Shown: piece by piece, positions 2,738 to 56,115 of the stretch
How positions within the stretch are numbered: position 1 is the stretch's first letter
How the letters are laid out: each line of letters begins with the position of its first letter
Assembly: GCA_964017185.1 (NCBI GenBank)
Contig: OZ024874.1
Span: 48,636,856-48,700,855, forward strand
DNA length: 64,000 nucleotides
Direction of reading: 5' to 3'
Origin: Rugalucina vietnamica
Taxonomy: Eukaryota; Mollusca; Bivalvia; Lucinida; Lucinidae
Made by a program: the position numbers and the translations under genes
Notes under the pieces: model-generated
Database searches by the model: none
What the model saw: only the letters and a program-made list of their open reading frames with translations
What the model was told of the DNA's origin: nothing

Positions 2738-3931
2738 CTAGAAGTAAACCAATAAGTGGACAATAATTATAATAGCACGACAAGTATTTTTGTTTTATGA
2801 TACATCAATAAACACTAACCTGATTAACGCATTAGCAAGTATAAATATATCGAGGACACGTGTTTGCCTTTGTCTGAGCAACACTGACACGCAAAACACA
2901 AAGCTGTCGGACAGAACGGAAATCATAAGTCATAACAGACTTTACTGAATAGAGTCTGACGAGATTTAATCAAGCCAGTATTATATATGCTGTTAATCAC
3001 AACAAGTATAGGGCTCTACAATGTTCAAAATAATTATTTTGATTATTGGCATTATTTCCAAAATCTAAATTAAAATACATTGGTAGAACAAAAGACGAGT
3101 CCGATTTGTGTCACAAACTGGAAAGGTTCTGAGCAAGGAGTACAATCTATTTATTTGGTTTGAAAGATGCATGTCAGTGTTCAAGGCGATACGTTTGTTG
3201 TGGCTCTATTTGTTTTGTGTTTTGAAGTAGAATGTTTATACTGTTTGAACCTTTTTTACGTTTTCATAGTTTTTTGCGTTTTCATAGATTAAGTTCCGGA
3301 AACTGAGTGGCAGCCTTTTGGGAAATAGCTGTTCACTCGGCTTATAATATGTTTTCTAACTATTCATAACAATCTGCACATTAAATTTATTCCCATCTCG
3401 GTATTTGGTGTGTGAATTTCTTTCTGAATCCACTTTTTTCCTTATTACTGTATTATTGTATTATAAGTGGAGAATAATTTTGATATCGAGACAAGAATTT
3501 TTGTTTTATGGTTCATCAATAAACACTAACCTGACAACAGATTAAGCAAGTAAAACCATGTCAATGACACATGTTTGCCTTTGTCGAAGCAAACAATGCT
3601 GAGCTGTCGAACGGAAGCGAAACATAAGTTTAAACAACCTAAATTATATGGGCATTATTTTAAGAAACCACTATACATGTTGCTTATCTAAATAAGGATA
3701 GGGCTCTGCAATGTCAAAATGATTTGTATTATTGACATTATTTTCAAAATCAAAATACCTAATGTACATAATTATCATGGAAGTTGATTCAGATTTGTGT
3801 CACTCGATGGGAAGATTCAGAATATAGCGTACAATTTGTTTATTTGGTTTGAAAGATGGTTGTGCTTTAAAGCTAAGACAAACTACATATCGGTTGCCCA
3901 GATTTGGGGGTAACTTTACATATAAACCTAC

Positions 3932-4709: not shown

Positions 4710-4710
4710 A

Positions 4711-7188
4711 AAAGGTACAAGTAGGCAAAGATCAGGAAAAGGCGCAATCAGAAAAAGATTCCCACTACAAAAACCGAGGTGGGAAAAAACCAAACTAACA
4801 ATCAGGTACTTATACCATGAAACATATCGTAAGCCGAATGAGCAGCTATTTTCCCAATAGGTGGCCACTCAGTTACCTTAACTTAACTAAAAATATGAAA
4901 ACATACATAAGGCGCCAACAACACAAAAAATGTTATACACCAAGACATAAAACAAAAAGAACCACCACAGAAGTATCGACTTGGAACGATCAGTAACACA
5001 AAGTTACTGGCGGGTTTAAACCGGTTTTACATGGCCATAACCTCACCCTCAGCTTCTGCAGTGGTTCATAACATTTAGTTAGTTATTTGGTCCTCGTGGT
5101 GAATCTCTAACTAGTCAATGAATCATCAAGAACAAACAAATAAATCATGATAAACATCCTGATGAATCAAAAACCAGGACTCACAGACTGAGTAAGCTGC
5201 CTGACGATGGAGATCCCTGGGTGCCGAATAACCTACTAACTCCGGAGCAAAAGAAAAACACCAGTTGGACCCCGGTGGGCCAAGCAACAGACAAGAAGCT
5301 CCGGCCCCAACCAACTAAAATGAATAGCTTTATGTCGGGGCCATCATAGAGTCTGACGCCCGACCCACCGGCGTGCAATTTAAGAAGGCAGCATAGTTAT
5401 CAACCATGATTGGGTTAAAAACTAAGCATGCAGACTGTCGCATAACATTTAAGTTATAACCTACACGTCTGTAACGTGTTATGATTTTTCTGAACTCTGA
5501 ACTGAAAAGAAAAATCATTAATTCCTTTAAGTTTCTTAAATTTGTAAACCAAGTCACCAAAAAATTCAGGTTCCGAAAGGCCCTCACTTAAAAGCGTCTT
5601 TAACCCAACATTATATTTGGAAATCAATTCATAGTGTCTACGATAAAATTTAGAAAATGTTTTTCGAAGTTTATGATACCGATAGCCCTGTTGGAGAAGT
5701 TTTGCCGTTAAACATTTATTTCGAGCGTTGAAGTCTGCAACATGATTGCAGACTCTAGCAAACCTAATAAGTTGCGAAATGTATACACCATAAGAAGCAC
5801 GACGAGGAACGTCACCATCCAAAAAAGGAAAATTTACTATATCAAAATCAAAGTCATCGCGCTTATCATAAATTTTAGAAGAAACAAATCCATTTGCAAC
5901 AGAAAGATGTAGATCTAAAAAGGGGGCTTCAGTATCTGTGATATTGGCTTTGTTCAACTGAAGTTCAGGTGGATAAATTTGATTGACCATACCTTCAAAA
6001 TAAGGGTTGTCAATGTTCAAAAGGTCATCGAGGTACCTAGATGTGGAATTAAAAGCCTCGATAACATCAGCTTGATAATCATGGTTAAGAGAATCCATGA
6101 AATCTCTTTCGTAGCAGTATAAAAATAAATCAGCTACGAGAGGTGCGCAATTTGTACCCATCGGAATTCCAACAATTTGTCTGTACAACTTGGTCCCAAA
6201 TCTAATATAAATATTATCAAGGAGATAGGATAAGGCATCGCATACATTCTGACATGACCAAAGTGTATACCGACTTTGGTCAGAGGAAGTGAAAAAAGCC
6301 TTTCTGTCATTACATGCCAAATAAAGTGAACCATAGTTTTTTAATGCCCTTTTGAAGGTCCACTCTATCAAATCCAGAAGTTTTTCTTTTATTAGATTAT
6401 GTGGTAATGTTGTATACAGAGTAGAAAAATCATATGTGGACAAGCTTGTCGCACGGAACCCTCTACACTTCAATTTACTGAGCACCTCACCAGAATTTTT
6501 AATTGACCAAAACCAATTTTTATTTGAAGTTTCATACACTGTCTCACAGTATCTTATAACATGAGATTTGATAGCAGTAAGACAGGAAGTTAATAATTTA
6601 GAAAGTTCAGTGGTAGTACAAGAGCTAGAATTTGCAATAAATCTAGCTTTGTATGGTCTTTTGTGAAGCTTAGGTAACCAATACATCGTAGGAAGTTTGT
6701 CTTGGCCTTCATTGACACAAACAGAAAACTTAACAGGTAAATCGTTTAAGTGGGCATTAACTACAGACACCTCATCAGTATCTGTCTCCAGATAAGCCAT
6801 GGTACCATCAAGCTCCTGTTTTAAGGTGTTAACGTAGTGAAGCCTACAAACGACAACAACATTGTTTGCGGCTTTATCTGCCGGAACCAAGACATACTTT
6901 CTATGAAATTCTTGGATACCCTGCTTCAAATGCCTAAATGACGATTTGGGTTTAGGAGGTAAAAGATTAGTATTTTGTGAATAAAACTTAATACGTTTAT
7001 CCACGATAGTGATGATACTTCTTTTCCATTCTTTAAGAGCATTATCCTCAACACCCTCTCGTTTACACCATCGATTACCGAAATCATTTAATGCAGATGA
7101 AATCTCCTCTCTACATTTGTCGAAATTAATGTAGGAAGGGAATCTATATTTCGGACCTTTAGAAACAATTTTGCGAATTCTAGAATCC
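4711..7188 (-). mobile_element. Naiad-type Penelope-like element, 3' part (copy 1)
   Basis: The 3' portion of an N-terminal-endonuclease-class PLE: RT coding region plus about 620 bp of 3' UTR ending at AAAGGTACAAGTAGG. The same 3' end occurs at 17585, 54424 and 61223. At 7189 the element is interrupted by a LINE and resumes at 10304. The assignment to Naiad rests on the RT sequence style, the CxC linker seen beyond the LINE, and recall of the published description of this clade in invertebrates. Confidence 0.8.
5330..7188 (-). pseudogene. Naiad PLE reverse transcriptase (frameshifted)
   Basis: An open frame runs from the LINE junction at 7188 through a 516-codon stretch; upstream of 7004 the frame stays open (GPKYRFPSYINF and so on). 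Counting from 7004, motif A is DFSTLY at about residues 192-197, motif B GIPMGTNCAPL at about 279-289 and motif C YLDD at about 324-327. LPTMYWLPKLHK lies upstream and YDKRDDFDFDIVNFP downstream. The protein would prime and copy the element's RNA. Near 5490-5507 the copy has a short (about 7 nt) duplication relative to the 54424 copy (GAACTCTGAACTGAA against GAACTGAA). This shifts the frame, and the last ~55 codons (to DSMMAPT at 5330) are read in another frame. No endonuclease is visible in this part. Confidence 0.8.
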
Positions 7189-10100
7189 TTGTTTGTTTGT
7201 TTGTTTGTTTGTTGTTTAACGACGCATCAACCCTGATGGGTCATTAGCGTCTAACAAGGTAAAACGTTAAAATATATTGAACTCGTATTAAAAAGTAACA
7301 CTAAGTAAGATATAAATGTCGTTGTAAAGAAACGATATATGAAATAATAAGATTGGTGATTTAAAAATCATATTTTATAAAACAGATTTACTTGTCTAAG
7401 AAATAATAAAATCTTTCCAACGGGTACATCTTTGAACAATTCTTTCAAGTTATCAGCTCGAAAACAAGAAATTCGCTCTGCTGCAAAGTCAGTGCATTCT
7501 AAAAGAAAGTGTTTAACTGTGAATGGTGTATCACAGCCAATGCATTTAGGTTCATCTTCTCGCTTTAATAAGTGGGAATGTGTTATTCTTGTATGACCTA
7601 TTCGGAGACGAGCAAGAACGATTTCCTCCCGTCTCGAAAGTTTATGAATTGCTTTTGGTCGTTTAACGATCGGTTCGACTTCCCTCAATTTATCAAACTT
7701 CGCTCCGTTCCAGATTGTTTGCCATTTGTCAGAGATGTACTCGTTAATAAAAGGTTTAAAATTGACATAAGGAATTTTAAAAACGGTTTCTTCTAGATTT
7801 AACGATTCTTTAGCGTTCTTATCAACTTTCTCATTTCCATATATACCTATATGACTGGGAACCCAGCAATAGATAATTGTTTTCAATTCCGAGATGGTAT
7901 GATGTTTTATTAATAGTTTTTGTATTTGAGGGTTTTTGGATGATGTATGGTTTAAGGCCTGTAGAACTGACATAGAGTCAGAAAAAATAATAAATTTGTC
8001 CTTTAAGTTACTTTCATTTATGAAGTCTAAAGCTAAGTCTATAGCTTTAGCTTCCGCAGTGAAAATTGAAGAGCCATCAGGTAAACGTAATGTTTTGCAA
8101 TTGCCGTTTGTAAAAGTAGCACAACCAACTTTGTTTTCTTCTTTTGAACCATCAGTATAAATACATTGATAGTCAATAAATTGAGATTGTAGTTGATGAA
8201 AACTTTCTTTTAGAAGGTGTGGATTTGAGTCGGATTTTTTCCCTGTATGTAGAGTCAAATTAACTTCTGGTTTTCTAATGCACCATGGTGGTATTTCTGA
8301 AACAAAATGTTCTTCTATTTTATCTTTTTGGATGTTTGCTGATTCTAAAAGTGGTGCAACCCGTAAACCAAAAGACCGGATAGCCTTTGGTTTACTTTCG
8401 TAAAGCTGTACGACTTCTTCAGAAAAATATGGCGGAAAAGACACCTTATGAACTGGATTTGATGGATTAGCAGCAATTCTAATGGCGTACTGTAGGGCAA
8501 GTTTCTCTCGTCGTAAATATAGAGATGGCTCTTCAGCCTCGACATAGAGGCTTTGTACAGGTGATGTTCGAAAAGCACCCAGAGCTAATCTTAGGCCTTG
8601 ATGATGCACTGTGTCAAGAGAACTGATATATGATGGTCTTGCCGATCCATATACGATGGATCCATAATCTAATTTTGAACGAATGAGGGAACGGTATAGC
8701 TGGAGAAGGACAGTGCGATCAGCACCCCAGTCTGTGTGTGATAATACTTTCAGTAAGTTCAACGCTTTCAGGCATTTGGCTTTTAAGTACTTGATATGTG
8801 GAATGAAAGAAAGTTTACGATCAAAAAGAACTCCAAGAAATTTAAAATCTTCAACTACTGGAATAAGAGAACCATATAAATAAAGTTCGGGATCATTGTG
8901 TACTTTCCGTAGTTGACAAAAATGTACACATTGAGTTTTCGACTTGGAAAATTTGAAACCATTATGTGAGGCCCAGTTTTCTATTCTGTTGATGCACTGC
9001 TGTAAGTGCCTTTCGATAGTTCTCATACTTTTTGACCTGTAACACATACAGAAATCATCTACATATAATGATCCATCTGTTTTAGGATCCAAACAATCCA
9101 TTATGCTATTTATCTTAATATTGAACAATGTTGTAGACAAGATGCTCCCTTGTGGGACACCCTGTGCTTGGTCGAACTTTTCGGATAAAGTCGATCCAAC
9201 ACGAACCTGGATCCAACGATCCGCAAGGAAATTTTCGATAAATGTAGCTAATCTGCCTCGTATTCCGAGATCATGTAGATCTCGCATAATACCATGTCTC
9301 CAGGTGGTATCATAAGCTTTTTCCAAGTCGAAAAACACAGCAACAACATGCTCTTTTGCAACAAAGGCATCACGAATAAAGGTTTCCAGTCTTACTAGAA
9401 TGTCGTTGGTACTTCGTTCAGAACGGAAGCCCGACTGAAAAGGAGATATTAGGTTATTACTTTCTAAGTACCAAACAAGTCTTACATTTATCATTCTCTC
9501 TAAAGTTTTGCAAAGACAACTTGTAAGTGCTATCGGTCTATAGCTGTTTGGTTCTGCATGGTCTTTTCCAGGTTTAGGAATTGGTATTATAGTGGCTAGT
9601 TCCCAACTTTCGGGAAACTTTCCAGTTTCCCACATATCATTAAATATATCTAAGAGAGCAAGAAGTGATTTTGGTGGAAGATGTTTTAACATTTGATAGT
9701 GAACTTCGTCGGGACCTGTTGCTGTATCATGGGCTTTACTGATGGCGTCTTTTAGTTCATCCAAATTAAAAGGAGTATTGTATTCTTCATTATTTGAGGA
9801 CTTAAAGTTTAACTTAGTCTTTTCTTGTTCTTTCTTATATTTTTGAAATTCCTCAGAATAATGACTGGTTGAGGAATTTGAACAAAATTGTGATGCCAAA
9901 GTATCTGCTATATCTTGTTTTGTGGAAGCTGTTTCGTTCGCATTGTTGAAATTGTAATTAAGATGGTGATAAGAAGCAGATTTAGATTTACCGGATATTT
10001 TCCTAACCATGTCCCAAACTTTTTTAGTGGGTGTTTTATAATTCAAATTCGATACGTATGTTCTCCATGATTTGCGTTTTGCAGACTTTATAGTCCGACG

Positions 10101-10293
10101 GGCTTTTGCTCTAGAATTCCTATAACTATTTAAATTTTCATGCGTTGGGAACTTGCAGAACTTCGACAAAGTGTCTTTCCGTTGTTTGATAGCTTCTTTA
10201 CAATCGTCATTATACCATGGGTTACTTTTCTTTGGGTTCGTCGAGGTTTTGGGAATACATTTCTCAGATATATTTATTAAAGAAGAGGTGAAG
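7189..10293 (-). mobile_element. 5'-truncated I/Nimb-type non-LTR retrotransposon
   Basis: A 3.1-kb LINE, minus strand, flanked by a 10-bp direct repeat TCTAGAATCC (7179-7188 and 10294-10303). Its 3' end on the minus strand reads GTTAAACAACAAACAAAC, a short (ACAA)n tail. The 5' end is cut inside ORF2, so the AP-endonuclease domain is missing. It sits inside the Naiad element and is therefore younger than it. The 3' tail resembles the SINE tails in this window, so a LINE of this kind could mobilise them; that is inference. Confidence 0.85.
7368..10293 (-). CDS. LINE ORF2 fragment: reverse transcriptase plus RNase H
   Basis: An uninterrupted frame of about 975 codons from the 5' truncation to a TAA at 7368; the first ATG would give 933 residues. 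Upstream of that ATG the frame contains NPWYNDD, the linker between endonuclease and RT. With the ATG as residue 1: RT block SYRPIALTS (209-217), FFDLEKAYD (279-287), GVPQGS (337-342) and catalytic YVDD (369-372). RNase H has YTDG (671-674), TAEAKA (705-710), FSDS (729-732) and GNEKVDKNAK (778-787), so its DED-D residues are present. A C-terminal CX2C...H...C knuckle lies near residues 885-901. The frame lacks stops and looks recent. Lacking the endonuclease and the promoter, this copy should be immobile. Confidence 0.9.
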
Positions 10294-10303
10294 TCTAGAA
10301 TCC

Positions 10304-10485
10304 GAATCCGAAATTATTTTTAAATTTCCAGTAACAATATGTCCAGCGGGTTGATAAACATATTTTGAATCTTTACAATCTCAAGACTTAGGAGTATTAG
10401 CATGGATATCAAGATCAGAAACAAGTTTATTGAAATTAAAAATTGTATTTCTGATTGGTTTGAAACACGATATTAACCAAAACTG
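10304..10485 (-). pseudogene. Naiad PLE linker with UGA in the CxC motif
   Basis: Beyond the LINE the Naiad reading frame resumes without a shift. Read on the minus strand it gives FKPIRNTIFNFN, then SDLDIHANTPKS, a TGA codon at 10381-10383, then DCKDSKYVYQPAGHIVTG, joining the RT frame at 7188. In this clade a CxC motif sits exactly here between the N-terminal GIY-YIG nuclease and the RT, so the TGA replaces its first cysteine. Naiads of clams are reported to be selenoproteins, which makes Sec readthrough plausible; a plain nonsense mutation is the alternative. A TAA in the same frame at 10486-10488 and loss of recognisable homology upstream suggest 5' truncation or decay. Confidence 0.7.
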
Positions 10486-10730
10486 TTATAATACTTCCCC
10501 GGATAACGTGGACATACAAGACAAAAACAATTAGCACCCACACAACATTTTCTCAGAAGCCTCAAGTGGAATACTTTTAAATCATGGCGTATTTCGATGA
10601 AAAAAATAGGAAAAAGAAGCTACATGTAGGCATGAGTTTAAGAAAAAACAACTGGGGTCTTCTCTTGTAATATGAAAATATGCTCTGAAATACTCTGCAT
10701 TAGACAGTTCTATCTACTCTCTCTCTCTCT

Positions 10731-10778
<48 letters not shown>

Positions 10779-13444: not shown

Positions 13445-13712
13445 AAGTAAAAGTAGGCATGCGCAATGATCAGGTAATGGCGTAATCACTTAAAAAACCG
13501 AGGCGGCAAAAGAACTAATTCATCACTTAGGTACTTAAATGAAGAAAACATATTGTAACCAAGTGAGAAACTATTTCCCAATAGACGGCCACTCAGTTAA
13601 TACCCAAACTTAACTAAAAACGAACATAAACGCACATAAGGTGCATACAGCACAAAAATGCGACACCCATATATAAAACAATAAGAACCACTACAGATGT
13701 ATTGCCTTGGAA
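13445..13712 (-). mobile_element. Diverged Naiad 3'-end fragment
   Basis: It follows the same order of blocks as the other Naiad 3' ends but with many substitutions: AAGTAGGCATGCGCAATGATCAGG, AAAAACCGAGG, AGGTACTTA, CGGCCACTCAGTTA, CATAAGGTGC, ACATAAAACA-like, AAGAACCACTACAGA. It is an older insertion, 5'-truncated, with no coding sequence. A G run follows at 13734-13747. Confidence 0.65.
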
Positions 13713-13799
13713 TGATAAGAAATAAATAATAAAGGGGGGGGGGGGGTAAACTATACGTTTTGCCTTTTTGGCTAAGTTTGATACAAACTTTAACTCTTA

Positions 13800-17580: not shown

Positions 17581-17584
17581 TTAA

Positions 17585-17696
17585 AAAGGTACAAGTAGGC
17601 AAAGATCAGGAAAAGGCGCAATCAGAAAAAGATTCCCACTCCAAAAACCGAGGTGGGAAAAAACCAAACTAACAATCAGGTACTTATACCATGAAA
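17585..17696 (-). mobile_element. Naiad 3'-end fragment (112 bp)
   Basis: Near-identical to the first 112 bases of the 4711 copy, then stops abruptly after CCATGAAA. This is an extreme 5' truncation, consistent with target-primed reverse transcription that ended early. Confidence 0.85.
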
Positions 17697-26201: not shown

Positions 26202-29060
26202 TTAATCACCTTTATTGATACCATGTGGCTGGAGTGTGTTCAGGCGTCTGATCCAATACGTTTCACGAGCTTTTCTTGCCGAATCAGACCAGTTGATGTC
26301 ATGGTCAAGACAGCATAGAGTAACGTGGCTGTTAAAGTCATGTCCAGGTAAAGTGAAGTGTTCCGCTACCGGTGCCCTTTGAAACCTCCGGTGTTTCCAA
26401 TCAGAGCGGTGACCATTGATACGCTTATGGAGGGGTTGTCCAGTCTCACCTATATACTGCTTGTTGCACTTTGTGCAGGTGATCAGATAAACCACATTCT
26501 TGGATTTGCAGTTTGTTTGATGTTTGAGTTTCACTGGCGCGCCGTTGGACGACTTGGCAACCTGAGTAGGTGTCATGACCTTGCAACAAGAACATGCCCT
26601 TCCCCCACAAGGCTTCGACTCCCCAGGTGGGGTGTTGTCCATAGGGTCTTGTGGTAGTCTAGCTTTGACTAGAAGGTCCCTGAGGCTCTTGGGGCGTCTA
26701 TATGCCATCACGGGCTTCTTAGGAAATACCTTCTTCAGGCGTTCTGAGGAATCAATGATAGACCAGTGTTTGTTGACGATTTCCTTAACTTTGGGTAGTT
26801 CAGGATGATATGTCATAACAAAAGGGGTGGCCGTATCTGTCGACTCCTCTTTGGGTCTGTAAGATAGTAGATCCCCTCGTTTGTGTGATCTGGCTTTGGC
26901 GATAGCAGTACTTATTTCCTGTAAGCTGTAACCCCGTCTTTTCAGATGGCTGGTCAATTCCTTGACCCTGTTCTCAAATGCATCCGTTGTAGAGCATATG
27001 CGTCTGATGCGCAAGGCAAGGCTGTACGGAATGTTACGGCATATGTGTTTGGGATGACAACTGGTGGGAAGGAGGTATTGGTGAGTGTCAGTGGGCTTGG
27101 TATACAAGTCCACCTGGATGCTATCACCTACCAGGGTAGAGTTGGTGTCTAGGAACACATGGTTGTCATTGGAGGTTTCGGCCGTGAACTTTATGGTTGG
27201 GTGAAAGTTGTTGGCCTCCTCCAAGAAGGTCTGGAGATTGTCCCGACCATGACCCCATTTCATGTCGATGTCGTCGATGAACCGAAGCCATGAAAAGGGT
27301 TTTAGTTGTACTGTCCGGAGAAGCTGGCCTTCTAACTTTCCCATGAATATATTTGCATAGGCTGGTGCCATTTTTGTTCCCATTGCAGTCCCTTGTACTT
27401 GAAGGTAATGTCTACCATTGAATTCGAAGTTATTACACTTCAAGATTATTGTGAGAAGCTCTACCAGTGTTTTAGTTGGAGGGTCTTTGACATGTCTCCT
27501 ATCCCATGCCTCCTCACAGGCTTGAATGCCGTCTTGGTGAGGTATGTTCGTATACAGGGCTGTAACGTCAAGGGATACTAGGAGAGTTTCTTGGGAGACC
27601 GGACCCGCTTCGTCCAATTTTCTTAAATAATCTGAGGTATCTTTCAGGTGAGACGGTAGATCTAGGACATGGGGCTGCAAGTGGAGATCTACAAATTCAG
27701 AGATCTTCTCTGTAGGATGCCCATTAGCAGAGACTATAGGGCGTCCAGGGTTGCCAGCTTTGTGTATTTTAGGGAGTAGATAGAATCGTCCGGCTCTTGG
27801 TCGATCAACAATGAGAAAGTCCATATTCTTCTCAGAGATATGACCATCTTCATACATGGAATGAACAGCCAAAGAGACTTTCTTGGCGAATTCATCTGTT
27901 GGGTCATGATCAAGGGGCTTGTAGTGCCTGGAGTCCGACAATTGCCTCTCTGCCTCGGAGATATAGTGCTCTCTATCCATAACAACAACAGCCGAGCCTT
28001 TGTCAGCCGGTTTAATGACAATGTCATTGTTTCTTTGTAGAGAAAAGAGAGCTTGGCGTTCGGCCTTGGTAAGGTTGTCATGTCTTGGATTATTTGGCTT
28101 GTGTGAAGTAATATCTGACTCGACACTTGAAATGAAGGTCTCAAGATCTCGACCCTGCTTGGGAGGTTGCCATGAACTTTTGAGGACAAACTTAGGGTAT
28201 TTCTCCTTTGGGCGATCCGGCATGTTCATAAATGTAGTAAGCTGTGTGGCTATGCTTGCATTAGAATCATCTGGATCGTCATCAGAGACAGAGCTCATGT
28301 CATTTTCTGTGGTTTGTACCTTTGTAAAGTGTGACATGAGCCTCATTCTGCGGCTAAATGCCACTGTGTCCTCAACCAGTTTTCCGCGATCGTAACTTTT
28401 TGGGCGCGGGCAGAAACCCAAACCCTTAGATAGAAGTGCTTCTTCAGGTTTCGATAGCTCTCTACTAGACAAATTTAGGACAAAGTTTGAGGACTTGTTG
28501 TCTTGCTTGTCCTGAACCTTGTTGATTCGTCTGGATCGCCTACTTCTAGGCTTACGTGCATCTGGTGGCTTCTCCGGAGGTATGGAGTTTGATGTGGGTG
28601 GCACGCCTAAGACTCTCAACTTTTTCTCACCTTTGTTTGTGAGAAGTCTTTCTTGTCTTTTAGACTCTATATTGAGTCTGGAGAGCACTCTGTTCAGAGA
28701 TGATTCGCCCGCAGTTTGTTTCAACTCTTGTTTGAGGTCTTCAAGGGTTGTGTTTAAGTTCCGTAAGAGTGCGCAAAATTGGCCCAGCAACAATGTCATA
28801 ATATCGATAGAAGTTTTCGTGAAAATGCCTTCGACACGTTTGTGAAACCGTAATGATGGTTTTCCTGGTCCGTTGATGTGGGCATTGAACTTCAGCCCGT
28901 TCGGGATGACTTTGTGTTGTAAGCATTTGGTCAGGAATTGACACTGATGGCTGTATTTAGCTTGTTTCAGTGTATTGGAGAGCATAGTTTGCTCAAGAAG
29001 TGTGTGGTTGACCCTGTCAGGGGACTTGGTCATTGTAACGAAATTAATGAGGTATAACAC
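26202..29060 (-). CDS. PLE polyprotein: reverse transcriptase plus GIY-YIG endonuclease
   Basis: A 952-codon intact ORF. The N-terminal region (residues 1-330) is basic and low in motifs, including a Pro/Arg/Lys-rich stretch near 155-185 and GLGFCPRP near 214-221. The RT follows: IKPADKGSAVVV (349-360), FYLLPKIHK (426-434), motif A SLDVTALYTNIPH (496-508), motif B GTAMGTKMAPAYAN (557-570), motif C FIDD (594-597). A Cys-rich linker (CGGRACSCC) leads to a GIY-YIG nuclease at 855-952 (VVYLITC, QYIGETG, KRINGH). RT first and nuclease last is the canonical Penelope/Poseidon/Neptune order, opposite to the Naiad arrangement. It would copy and insert its own RNA in the nucleus. No stops or frameshifts, so it may be active. 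Confidence 0.92.
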   Translation of the reverse strand: MLYLINFVTMTKSPDRVNHTLLEQTMLSNTLKQAKYSHQCQFLTKCLQHKVIPNGLKFNAHINGPGKPSLRFHKRVEGIFTKTSIDIMTLLLGQFCALLRNLNTTLEDLKQELKQTAGESSLNRVLSRLNIESKRQERLLTNKGEKKLRVLGVPPTSNSIPPEKPPDARKPRSRRSRRINKVQDKQDNKSSNFVLNLSSRELSKPEEALLSKGLGFCPRPKSYDRGKLVEDTVAFSRRMRLMSHFTKVQTTENDMSSVSDDDPDDSNASIATQLTTFMNMPDRPKEKYPKFVLKSSWQPPKQGRDLETFISSVESDITSHKPNNPRHDNLTKAERQALFSLQRNNDIVIKPADKGSAVVVMDREHYISEAERQLSDSRHYKPLDHDPTDEFAKKVSLAVHSMYEDGHISEKNMDFLIVDRPRAGRFYLLPKIHKAGNPGRPIVSANGHPTEKISEFVDLHLQPHVLDLPSHLKDTSDYLRKLDEAGPVSQETLLVSLDVTALYTNIPHQDGIQACEEAWDRRHVKDPPTKTLVELLTIILKCNNFEFNGRHYLQVQGTAMGTKMAPAYANIFMGKLEGQLLRTVQLKPFSWLRFIDDIDMKWGHGRDNLQTFLEEANNFHPTIKFTAETSNDNHVFLDTNSTLVGDSIQVDLYTKPTDTHQYLLPTSCHPKHICRNIPYSLALRIRRICSTTDAFENRVKELTSHLKRRGYSLQEISTAIAKARSHKRGDLLSYRPKEESTDTATPFVMTYHPELPKVKEIVNKHWSIIDSSERLKKVFPKKPVMAYRRPKSLRDLLVKARLPQDPMDNTPPGESKPCGGRACSCCKVMTPTQVAKSSNGAPVKLKHQTNCKSKNVVYLITCTKCNKQYIGETGQPLHKRINGHRSDWKHRRFQRAPVAEHFTLPGHDFNSHVTLCCLDHDINWSDSARKARETYWIRRLNTLQPHGINKGD

Positions 29061-29260
29061 AGAAGGTTGAAGTGACTTAAAAAGGTGCTGGTGAAACTAA
29101 GGATCTAAAAAAATAATTGAAGCGGTTGGATACAGAAAAAAGAAAAAGGGAAAAAATTCTAACTACTGAGCTAAGCTATAAAACTACTCAACTAAATATG
29201 AAATGTGACCGGGTTTAATTGGATCGCAAGGATACAAGATGTATATAAATTAATAGTAAA

Positions 29261-29584
29261 ATATGAGATTTAGGTAATATACATCAAACAATCAAACCCT
29301 GTCGGTAGCACTGGATCCAAGTTGGATGCTAAAATGATATGCGGTAAGTATATATGGAGATTTTATCATCAACAGTGCAAAATCCTATTTGTGCCTGAGC
29401 GCGCTTTCGCCTTTCGGCTTCTTCAGAGGCTTACTAAATACTACATAATAAGAGTGTGATATCTACATCTGCCTGACATAGGCAGTCCAAAACTAGGAGA
29501 CAAAATGTAATCTAAAAATTCTACATACTACTCATAACATTGTAAAACCTTATATAACTACATAAGAAATAAACACACCGCTAC
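29261..29584 (-). repeat. PLE pseudo-LTR, right copy (5' of the ORF)
   Basis: Direct repeat of 25369-25692 at an offset of exactly 3892. It ends at CCGCTAC, where the sequence switches to the inverted copy through a 3-bp overlap (TAC). It contains the hammerhead motif at 29393-29430. Confidence 0.85.
29393..29430 (-). ncRNA. Hammerhead ribozyme motif in upstream pseudo-LTR
   Basis: Identical in layout to 25501-25538. Lying upstream of the ORF on the coding strand, it could define the 5' end of processed element RNA, the role suggested for such ribozymes in other retroelements (inference). Confidence 0.7.
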
Positions 29585-30290
29585 TGCTATCGCCAAAGCC
29601 AGATCACACAAACGAGGGGATCTACTATCTTACAGACCCAAAGAGGAGTCGACAGATACGGCCACCCCTTTTGTTATGACATATCATCCTGAACTACCCA
29701 AAGTTAAGGAAATCGTCAACAAACACTTGTCTATCATTGATTCCTCAGAACGCCTGAAGAAGGTATTTCCTAAGAAGCCCGTGATGGCATATAGACGCCC
29801 CAAGAGCCTCAGGGACCTTCTAGTCAAAGCTAGACTACCACAAGACCCTATGGACAACACCCCACCTGGGGAGTCGAAGCCTTGTGGGGGAAGGGCATGT
29901 TCTTGTTGCAAGGTCATGACACCTACTCAGGTTGCCAAGTCGTCCAACGGCGCGCCAGTGAAACTCAAACATCAAACAAACTGCAAATCCAAGAATGTGG
30001 TTTATCTGATCACCTGCACAAAGTGCAACAAGCAGTATATAGGTGAGACTGGACAACCCCTCCATAAGCGTATCAATGGTCACCGCTCTGATTGGAAACA
30101 CCGGAGGTTTCAAAGGGCACCGGTAGCGGAACACTTCACTTTACCTGGACATGACTTTAACAGCCACGTTACTCTATGCTGTCTTGACCATGACATCAAC
30201 TGGTCTGATTCGGCAAGAAAAGCTCGTGAAACGTATTGGATCAGACGCCTGAACACACTCCAGCCACATGGTATCAATAAAGGTGATTAA
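29584..30290 (+). pseudogene. PLE C-terminal fragment with GIY-YIG endonuclease
   Basis: About 235 codons, open to the junction, matching the last quarter of the 952-codon ORF with at least one substitution (KHLSIID for KHWSIID). The nuclease motifs YLITC, QYIGETG and KRINGH are intact, but there is no RT and no start of its own. It is a by-product of the compound insertion rather than a gene. Confidence 0.85.
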
Positions 30291-54423: not shown

Positions 54424-56115
54424 AAAAGGTACAAGTAGGCAAAGATCAGGAAAAGGCGCAATCAGAAAAAGATTCCCACTCCAAAAACCGAGGTGGGAAA
54501 AAACCAAACTAACAATCAGGTACTTATACCATGAAACACATCGTAAGCCGAATGAGCAGCTATTTTCCCAACAGGCGGCCACTCAGTTACCTTAACTAAA
54601 AATATGAAAACATACATAAGGCGCCAACAGCACAAAAAATTTTAAACACCAAGACATAAAACAAAAAGAACCACTACAGAAGTATCGACTTGGAACGATC
54701 AGTAACACAAAGTTACTGGCGGGCTTAAACCGGTTTTACAGGTACCTAACCTCACCCTCAGCTTCTGCAGTGGTTCACAACATTTAGTTAGTTCTTCGGT
54801 CCTCGTGGTGAATCTCTAACTAGTCAATGAATCATCAAGAACAAACAAATAAATCATGATAAACATCCTGATGAATCAAAAACCAGGACTCACAGATTGA
54901 GTAAGCTGCCCGACGATGGAGATCCCTGGGCGCCGAATAACCTACTAACTCCGGAGCAAAAGAAAAACACCAGTTGGACCCCGGTGGGCCAAGCAACAGA
55001 CAAGAAGCTCCGGCCCCAACCAACTAAAATGAATAGCTTTAAGTCGGGGCCATCATAGAGTCTGACGCCCGACCCACCGGCGTGCAATTAAAGAAGGCAG
55101 CATAGTTATCAACCATGATTGGGTTAAAAACTAAGCATGCAGACTGTCGCATAACATTCAAGTTATAACCTATACGTCTGTAACGTGATATGATTTTTCC
55201 GAACTGAAGAGAAAAATCATTTATTCCTTTAAGTTTCTTTAATTTGTAAACCAAGTCACCATAAAATTCAGGTTCCGAAAGGCCCTCACTTAAAAGTGTC
55301 TTTAACCCAACATTATATTTGGAAATCAATTCATAGTGTCTACGATAAAATTTAGAAAAGGTTTTTCGAAGTTTATGATACCGATAGCCCTGTTGGAGAA
55401 GTTTTGCCGTTAAACATTTATTTCGAGCGTTGAAGTCTGTAACATGATTGCAGACTCTAGCAAACCTAATAAGTTGCGAAATGTATACACCATAAGAAGC
55501 ACGACGAGGAACGTCACCATCCAAAAAAGGAAAATTTACTATATCAAAATCAAAGTCATCGCGCTTATCATAAATTTTAGAAGAAACAAATCCATTTGCA
55601 ACAGAAAGATGTAGATCTAAAAAGGGGGCTTCGGTATCTGAGATATTAGCTTTGTTCAACTGAAGTTCAGGTGGATAAATTTGATTGACCATACCTTCAA
55701 AATAAGGGTTGTCAATGTTCAAAAGGTCATCGAGGTACCTAGATGTGGAATTAAAAGCCTCGATAACATCAGCTTGATTATCATGGTTAAGAGAATCCAT
55801 GAAATCTCTTTCGTAGCAGTATAAAAATAAATCAGCTACGAGAGGTGCGCAATTTGTACCCATCGGAATTCCAACAATTTGTCTGTATAACTTGGTCCCA
55901 AATCTAATATAAATATTATCAAGGAGATAGGATAAGGCGTCGCACACATTCTGACATGACCAAAGGGTATACCGACTTTGGTCAGAGGAAGTGAAAAAAG
56001 CCTTTCTGTCATTACATGCCAAATAAAGTGAACCATAGTTTTTTAATGCCCTTTTGAAGGTCCACTCTATCAAATCCAGAAGTTTTTCTTTAATTAGATT
56101 ATGTGGTAATGTTGT
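54424..56115 (-). mobile_element. Naiad PLE, 5'-truncated copy 2
   Basis: Colinear with 4711-6410, a few per cent different. It begins at the shared 3' end (AAAGGTACAAGTAGG) and is cut at ATGTGGTAATGTTGT (56101-56115), in RT motif A. Confidence 0.9.
55039..56115 (-). pseudogene. Naiad reverse transcriptase fragment
   Basis: About 358 codons open to the natural stop. Motif B GIPMGTNCAPL and catalytic YLDD are intact; motif A is lost at the truncation (the frame begins TTLPHNL). Unlike copy 1 it has no 7-nt duplication, so the C-terminus (FGKIISRYRRIGYNLN ... DSMMAPT) reads in frame and shows the original end of the protein. No promoter, no CxC linker, no nuclease. Confidence 0.9.

Follow-up and report, generated by a model that had tools for sequence, protein, structure and literature searches.

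The locus raises the question whether the TGA at 10381-10383 on the minus strand, an in-frame stop at the first cysteine position of a CxC motif in a retrotransposon, is a codon for selenocysteine (Sec) or a product of decay. The analysis covered the window, that is, the whole 64-kb stretch of DNA in which the locus lies, and copies of the same family throughout the genome. Very probably, the site is a dead copy from a young Penelope-like retrotransposon (PLE) family of the Naiad type, which is very abundant and encodes a selenoprotein, with three UGA codons standing for Cys; since the three UGA codons fall at Cys positions and the family has a SECIS element, its copying enzyme is very probably a selenoprotein. 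From the comparisons that follow, we infer Sec insertion, the activity of the protein, the mode of insertion and the role of Sec. Use of the 21st amino acid is rare among transposable elements.

The truncated copy and its reading frame

The features of this copy, and of further family copies in the window, are as follows.

10381-10383, minus strand: TGA, the third UGA codon of the family (UGA3), at the first Cys of the CxC motif; TGA in 704/711 places
10304-10462, minus strand: 5'-most surviving piece, a linker with the UxC motif (KPIRNTIFNFNK...PKS-U-DC...GHIVTGNLKII), delimited by comparison with sister copies
10294-10303, minus strand: target repeat TCTAGAATCC, copy 2
7189-10293, minus strand: LINE inside the element, with RVT_1 and RNase H-like domains
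7179-7188, minus strand: target repeat TCTAGAATCC, copy 1
5490-7188, minus strand: reverse transcriptase (RT) part of the ORF, open in this copy; YLDD and PADK motifs recognized by eye
5490-5496, minus strand: 7-nt frame-shifting insertion, place approximate; absent from the copy at 54424-56115
5330-5587, minus strand: C terminus of the ORF, read in the shifted frame (...AAFLNCTPVGRASDSMMAPT), with TAA at 5330-5332
5288-5355, minus strand: SECIS element (RF00031), 37.4 bits (gathering threshold 35)
4710-5287, minus strand: remainder of the 3' untranslated end; the stretch similar to the copy at 54424-56115 starts at 4710
54424-56115, minus strand: second copy, 5'-truncated, 97% identical, C-terminal frame open to the TAA
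54997-55064, minus strand: SECIS element of the second copy, 39.0 bits
61221-61981, minus strand: third, shorter copy; A-rich motif of the SECIS mutated from AAA to ACA
17584-17696, minus strand: 113-nt fragment of the family 3' end, 99% identical

On the minus strand, a direct reading between 10485 and the LINE junction gives QFWLISCFKPIRNTIFNFNKLVSDLDIHANTPKS-TGA-DCKDSKYVYQPAGHIVTGNLKIISDS, and the residues DIHANTPKS stand directly before the TGA, the last five of them as given in the preliminary description. The 159-nt core (10304-10462) was 100% identical in all 39 non-self matches scored (the best 40 of 767 candidates); each of these matches begins at 10462, and the sister loci that were read diverge from the window upstream of this position. 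Since the sister matches start at 10462 with other sequence upstream, positions 10463-10485 of the stretch first described lie outside the element. A CT-rich run followed by a long A run (approximately 10716-10776) precedes the truncated copy, about 250 bases before its start.

The LINE is flanked by the two 10-bp target repeats that had been described for it, and the frame was said to run without a shift once the LINE is removed; this holds in the relatives, since all 11 readings of LINE-free sisters keep the frame, which continues as GNLKIISDSRIRKIVSKGPKYRFP. The open RT frame of the window copy comprises 564 codons (5490-7181) before the 7-nt insertion, in agreement with the more than 550 codons to about 5490 reported earlier. 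It matched the RT of a canonical PLE in the window (26895-28019; BLASTP, E 4e-15); in a Pfam search this frame had no match, RVT_1 itself included. The window copy is dead: it is 5'-truncated, interrupted by a LINE and frameshifted, and therefore should not be active.

The clearly dead state of this copy would suit ordinary decay, that is, a nonsense mutation of TGT or TGC peculiar to the window copy; the state of the codon across the family argues against it. When a 34-base pattern with exact flanks and a free codon was searched in the whole 1.09-Gb genome (47 contigs), the UGA3 codon was TGA in 704 of 711 places and TGT or TGC in none, with the qualification that exact-flank tallies, here as for UGA1 and UGA2 below, lean to young copies. 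With up to three mismatches allowed, the pattern was found in 1,451 places and the reversed control in none. Because TGA is common to 704 of the 711 copies, chance is excluded and ordinary decay was rejected; we lend it virtually no credence. The preliminary description had named a majority of TGA among sister copies, together with a conserved SECIS, as support for Sec, and TGT or TGC throughout the sisters, with no SECIS-like fold, as evidence against it; the TGA majority was found, and the TGT or TGC pattern was absent.

Three UGA codons and their cysteine counterparts

The protein of the family has three in-frame UGA codons, two of them upstream of UGA3; UGA1 and UGA2 are missing from the window copy. 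UGA1 (SDLD-U-KSMDLVY) stands just ahead of the GIY-YIG match, UGA2 (VYVLT-U-NTNNCRMQYVGQT, with the residues VYVLT-U-NTNNC) within the start of this match, and UGA3 (PKS-U-DCKDS) at the first Cys of the CxC linker. Among the 100 matches listed for each pattern, UGA1 was TGA in 99 and TAA in one (of 519 places), and UGA2 was TGA in all 100 (of 439 places). De-duplicated loci, picked by their UGA3 region, without alignments below 200 nt and perhaps with two copies merged at some loci, had TGA in 34 of 34 cases at UGA1, in 34 of 35 at UGA2 (one gap) and in 58 of 58 at UGA3. UGA2 would correspond to the first Cys of the CCHH motif in PLE endonucleases, and UGA3 to that of the CxC motif; two of the Sec residues in this family would thus replace Cys of presumed metal-binding motifs. 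Sec is seldom reported at the Cys of metal-binding motifs. In this family, the role of Sec would probably be to replace Cys ligands of metal-binding or structural motifs.

Upstream of 10462, the sister copies continue into the GIY-YIG domain, and the endonuclease piece matched PF01541 (GIY-YIG) at 26.9 bits (cut-off 22.6); this match was obtained with the shorter piece only, and Pfam and PDB searches with the whole ORF gave nothing useful. Twelve upstream sequences were chosen from 30 distinct ones, and 11 of them keep an open frame between UGA1 and UGA3, TGA aside, the exception (L036) having a 1-nt difference. L037 first suggested a frameshift between endonuclease and RT, which was considered and rejected as a feature of the family; it is a 1-nt difference of L037, shared by L036, against the other long upstream sequences. 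Downstream, six of 11 readings (L040, the first copy of L041, L045, L046, L047 and L049) run from UGA3 to ...DSMMAPT-TAA with TGA as their only stops, one additional TGA being peculiar to L047; in the other five the reading is disrupted by a shift, a rearrangement or an insertion. The L047 ORF has 1,077 codons counted from the first ATG. The domain order in the single ORF is thus an N-terminal GIY-YIG domain, then the linker, then the RT.

Relatives in the same genome have Cys at the positions of the UGA codons. The canonical PLE in the window has an open frame of 964 aa (26202-29096, minus strand) with RVT_1 (E 5.6e-9) and GIY-YIG (E 3.6e-9) domains, and UGA1 and UGA2 both align with Cys residues of this protein (NCKSKNVVYLITC; tblastn, E 5e-11). 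In this alignment 43 of 149 columns are identical; two of the 43 identities are built in, as the query had C written at its stops, and the E value does not depend on them. An inverted partial second copy of the endonuclease end of the canonical PLE lies nearby (29538-30290, plus strand). The UGA3 position is occupied by Cys (VCSC) in L080, a separate lineage of the same genome (TPVCSCNSSKFCYQPVGHVITGD), and by TGA in L081, a diverged member of the L080 lineage. The CxC motif that had been expected between nuclease and RT is therefore found as UxC in the family and as CxC in L080. Two other relatives, at C1:77689346 and C12:53434230, have long open frames and a stop-free CxC region, and are candidates for Cys-bearing source lineages.

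Since exact flanks favour young copies, the family state at UGA3 was checked a second time with the Cys-bearing relative as query, in a six-frame search of the genome with 32 aa from L080 (P0001). Exactly one TGA was present in 138 of the 150 scored matches (the best 150 of 1,409 candidates), and TAA or TAG in none of the 150; the matches are short and singly weak (non-self E values 1e-4 to 5e-3), and their stops were counted, not placed. The remaining 12 matches are stop-free, one being the query itself and four starting one residue past the Sec position; two of the 12 stand in open frames of 594 and 674 aa. These stop-free matches, and the existence of the L080 lineage itself, favour an alternative in which the family is non-autonomous: its TGA codons would be real stops, and its copies would have been mobilized in trans by an enzyme from a Cys-bearing relative. 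This alternative leaves it unexplained that three stops fall exactly at Cys positions in better copies free of TAA and TAG, that the frame is otherwise open in most upstream and in six of the 11 downstream readings, and that a TGY version with the exact flanks of the family was found in none of the 711 places; we consider it highly improbable, and prefer a family that encodes its own selenoprotein.

The SECIS element and the stop codon within it

Rfam RF00031 (SECIS_1) matched above the gathering threshold, on the right strand and downstream of the UGA, in two of the window copies; no other Rfam match in the 64-kb window exceeds gathering, and in the third copy none does. A SECIS search of 4711-5329 on the minus strand had been proposed; the element is present, but its position at 5288-5355 lies only partly inside that stretch. 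All ten sister loci searched have a SECIS above gathering (13 matches), which is unexpected for a defective family spread in trans, and the absence of a SECIS-like fold from the family, named in advance as evidence against Sec, did not occur. An old, decayed copy in L006 (83% identical) no longer scores as a SECIS. The fold of 5280-5365 is more stable than 200 of 200 shuffled sequences (z -3.5), and of 24 windows of 68 nt compared along the element the SECIS varies least, with 0.0031 differences per base from L047 (0.0035-0.061 in the others) in a small sample of about 14 copies at the SECIS.

These results also bear on plain readthrough, in which UGA would be translated as Trp or another residue, or recoded, without Sec. 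The stop in the frame of the better copies is TGA, as with a leaky UGA; yet readthrough accounts neither for a SECIS that scores above threshold and varies least along the element, nor for relatives that have Cys, and not Trp or Arg, at the UGA positions. This explanation is almost certainly wrong, and Sec remains the preferred reading of the three codons.

The SECIS (5288-5355) spans the last eight codons of the ORF and its TAA (5330-5332), and does so likewise in the sister copies; within the SECIS, the final codons ATG ATG GCC CCG ACW TAA form the AUGA core, 5' arm and A-rich motif. A half-SECIS pattern with 29 fixed bases occurs in 8,615 places in the genome, and TAA was present in 65 of the 68 matches listed with their letters, the others having TAG, CAA and TTT, one each. 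The family therefore departs from the location wholly within the 3' UTR that is usual, though not defining, for a SECIS. In the relevant passages of two papers, cellular SECIS elements are described as 3' UTR elements, with the fowlpox GPX4 gene as the exception, whose SECIS lies in coding sequence and was shown to be functional (PMC8310308, PMC6769590). The family resembles this gene, as described there, in that its SECIS overlaps coding sequence; it differs in that the viral GPX4 enzyme is unrelated and its SECIS lies within the ORF, whereas the overlap in the family comprises the last eight codons and the stop only. For a cellular gene, a UAA within the SECIS would be unusual, and it could impair function; since the coding-sequence SECIS of fowlpox GPX4 works, the overlap of stop and SECIS should not prevent it.

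It is possible, though on balance doubtful, that the element has fused its stop and Sec signals, with the UAA formed by the A-rich motif, and that a ribosome, in order to terminate, has to move into the SECIS on which the following ribosome relies. If so, Sec decoding, termination and the use of the RNA as a template for reverse transcription would be linked, and transposition would depend on the host's selenium status. With its stop codon inside the SECIS, the family offers a clean test case for the mutual tolerance of SECIS and termination. Elsewhere in the 3' end of the window copy, a weak twister-P1-like Rfam match is found at 4958-5022 on the minus strand (23.2 bits, gathering threshold 67.2, E 0.25), with outer pairs that appear poor by eye.

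Host machinery, spread and placement of the family

The genome contains two tRNA-Sec matches above the Rfam cut-off of 47 (79.0 and 71.2 bits). A further 22 tRNA-Sec-like matches are sub-threshold (40-46 bits), several of them clustered on C2 near 27.8 Mb, and are possibly tRNA-Ser or tRNA-derived repeats. Since a control search returned some tRNA-Sec match in 14 of 14 named genomes and passed the cut-off in only five, only the two strong matches count. Together with the TGA majority, the SECIS, the two further TGA codons at Cys positions and the Cys-bearing relative, the tRNA-Sec upholds the original proposal of Sec for Cys in place of decay. From its position at the ORF's 3' end, the SECIS would recruit the Sec machinery of the host (tRNA-Sec, and presumably SBP2 and EFSec); all three UGA codons would be read as Sec, and translation would end at the UAA inside the SECIS. 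The product would be an endonuclease-RT with Sec in its Cys motifs, which would copy RNA into new sites by target-primed reverse transcription and leave mostly 5'-truncated copies.

The number of places per pattern is 8,615 for the half-SECIS, 711 for UGA3, 519 for UGA1 and 439 for UGA2, with patterns that differ in length and content; the fall in counts from 3' to 5' would fit 5' truncation in target-primed reverse transcription. With the 29-base SECIS part at so many places, expressed copies could conceivably compete with host selenoprotein mRNAs for SBP2. Hundreds of copies in this genome have Sec codons, thousands have part of the SECIS, and a Cys-bearing relative is present as well; the genome is thus a natural collection in which the passage from Cys to Sec, and a possible advantage of Sec in a mobile enzyme, can be studied.

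The order of the domains and the motifs suggest placement among the Naiads. Craig, Yushenova, Rodriguez and Arkhipova reportedly described selenoprotein-encoding Naiad PLEs of clams and spiders in 2021 (Mol Biol Evol 38:5005); as Sec-encoding Naiads are thus already published, the present family adds to a known group. With the selenoprotein Naiads, as these are reported to be, it shares the N-terminal GIY-YIG domain, the CxC linker and the PLE-type RT, as well as several Sec codons, very high copy number and perhaps the tandem arrangement of copies. Among the papers listed in a literature search, the coverage of which did not include that paper, none dealt with selenoprotein PLEs. The family also has RT and GIY-YIG domains homologous to those of canonical PLEs with a C-terminal endonuclease (Penelope/Poseidon type, e.g., 26202-29096). 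In contrast to these, its GIY-YIG domain precedes the linker and the RT, the canonical order being reversed, with GIY-YIG after RT; the canonical PLE of the window also differs in having Cys codons at the first two Sec positions.

Copies of the family recur in head-to-tail tandem with a spacing of approximately 4,223-4,279 bp, at C1:83.95 Mb, C2:64.83 Mb, C2:6.83 Mb, C3:25.25 Mb and C3:25.77 Mb, which may reflect the tandem arrangement with pseudo-LTRs that is a feature of Naiads. Within the window, short pieces at 13487-13716 and 3285-3354 share 76% and 83% identity with the 3' end of the element, and perhaps represent related older families.
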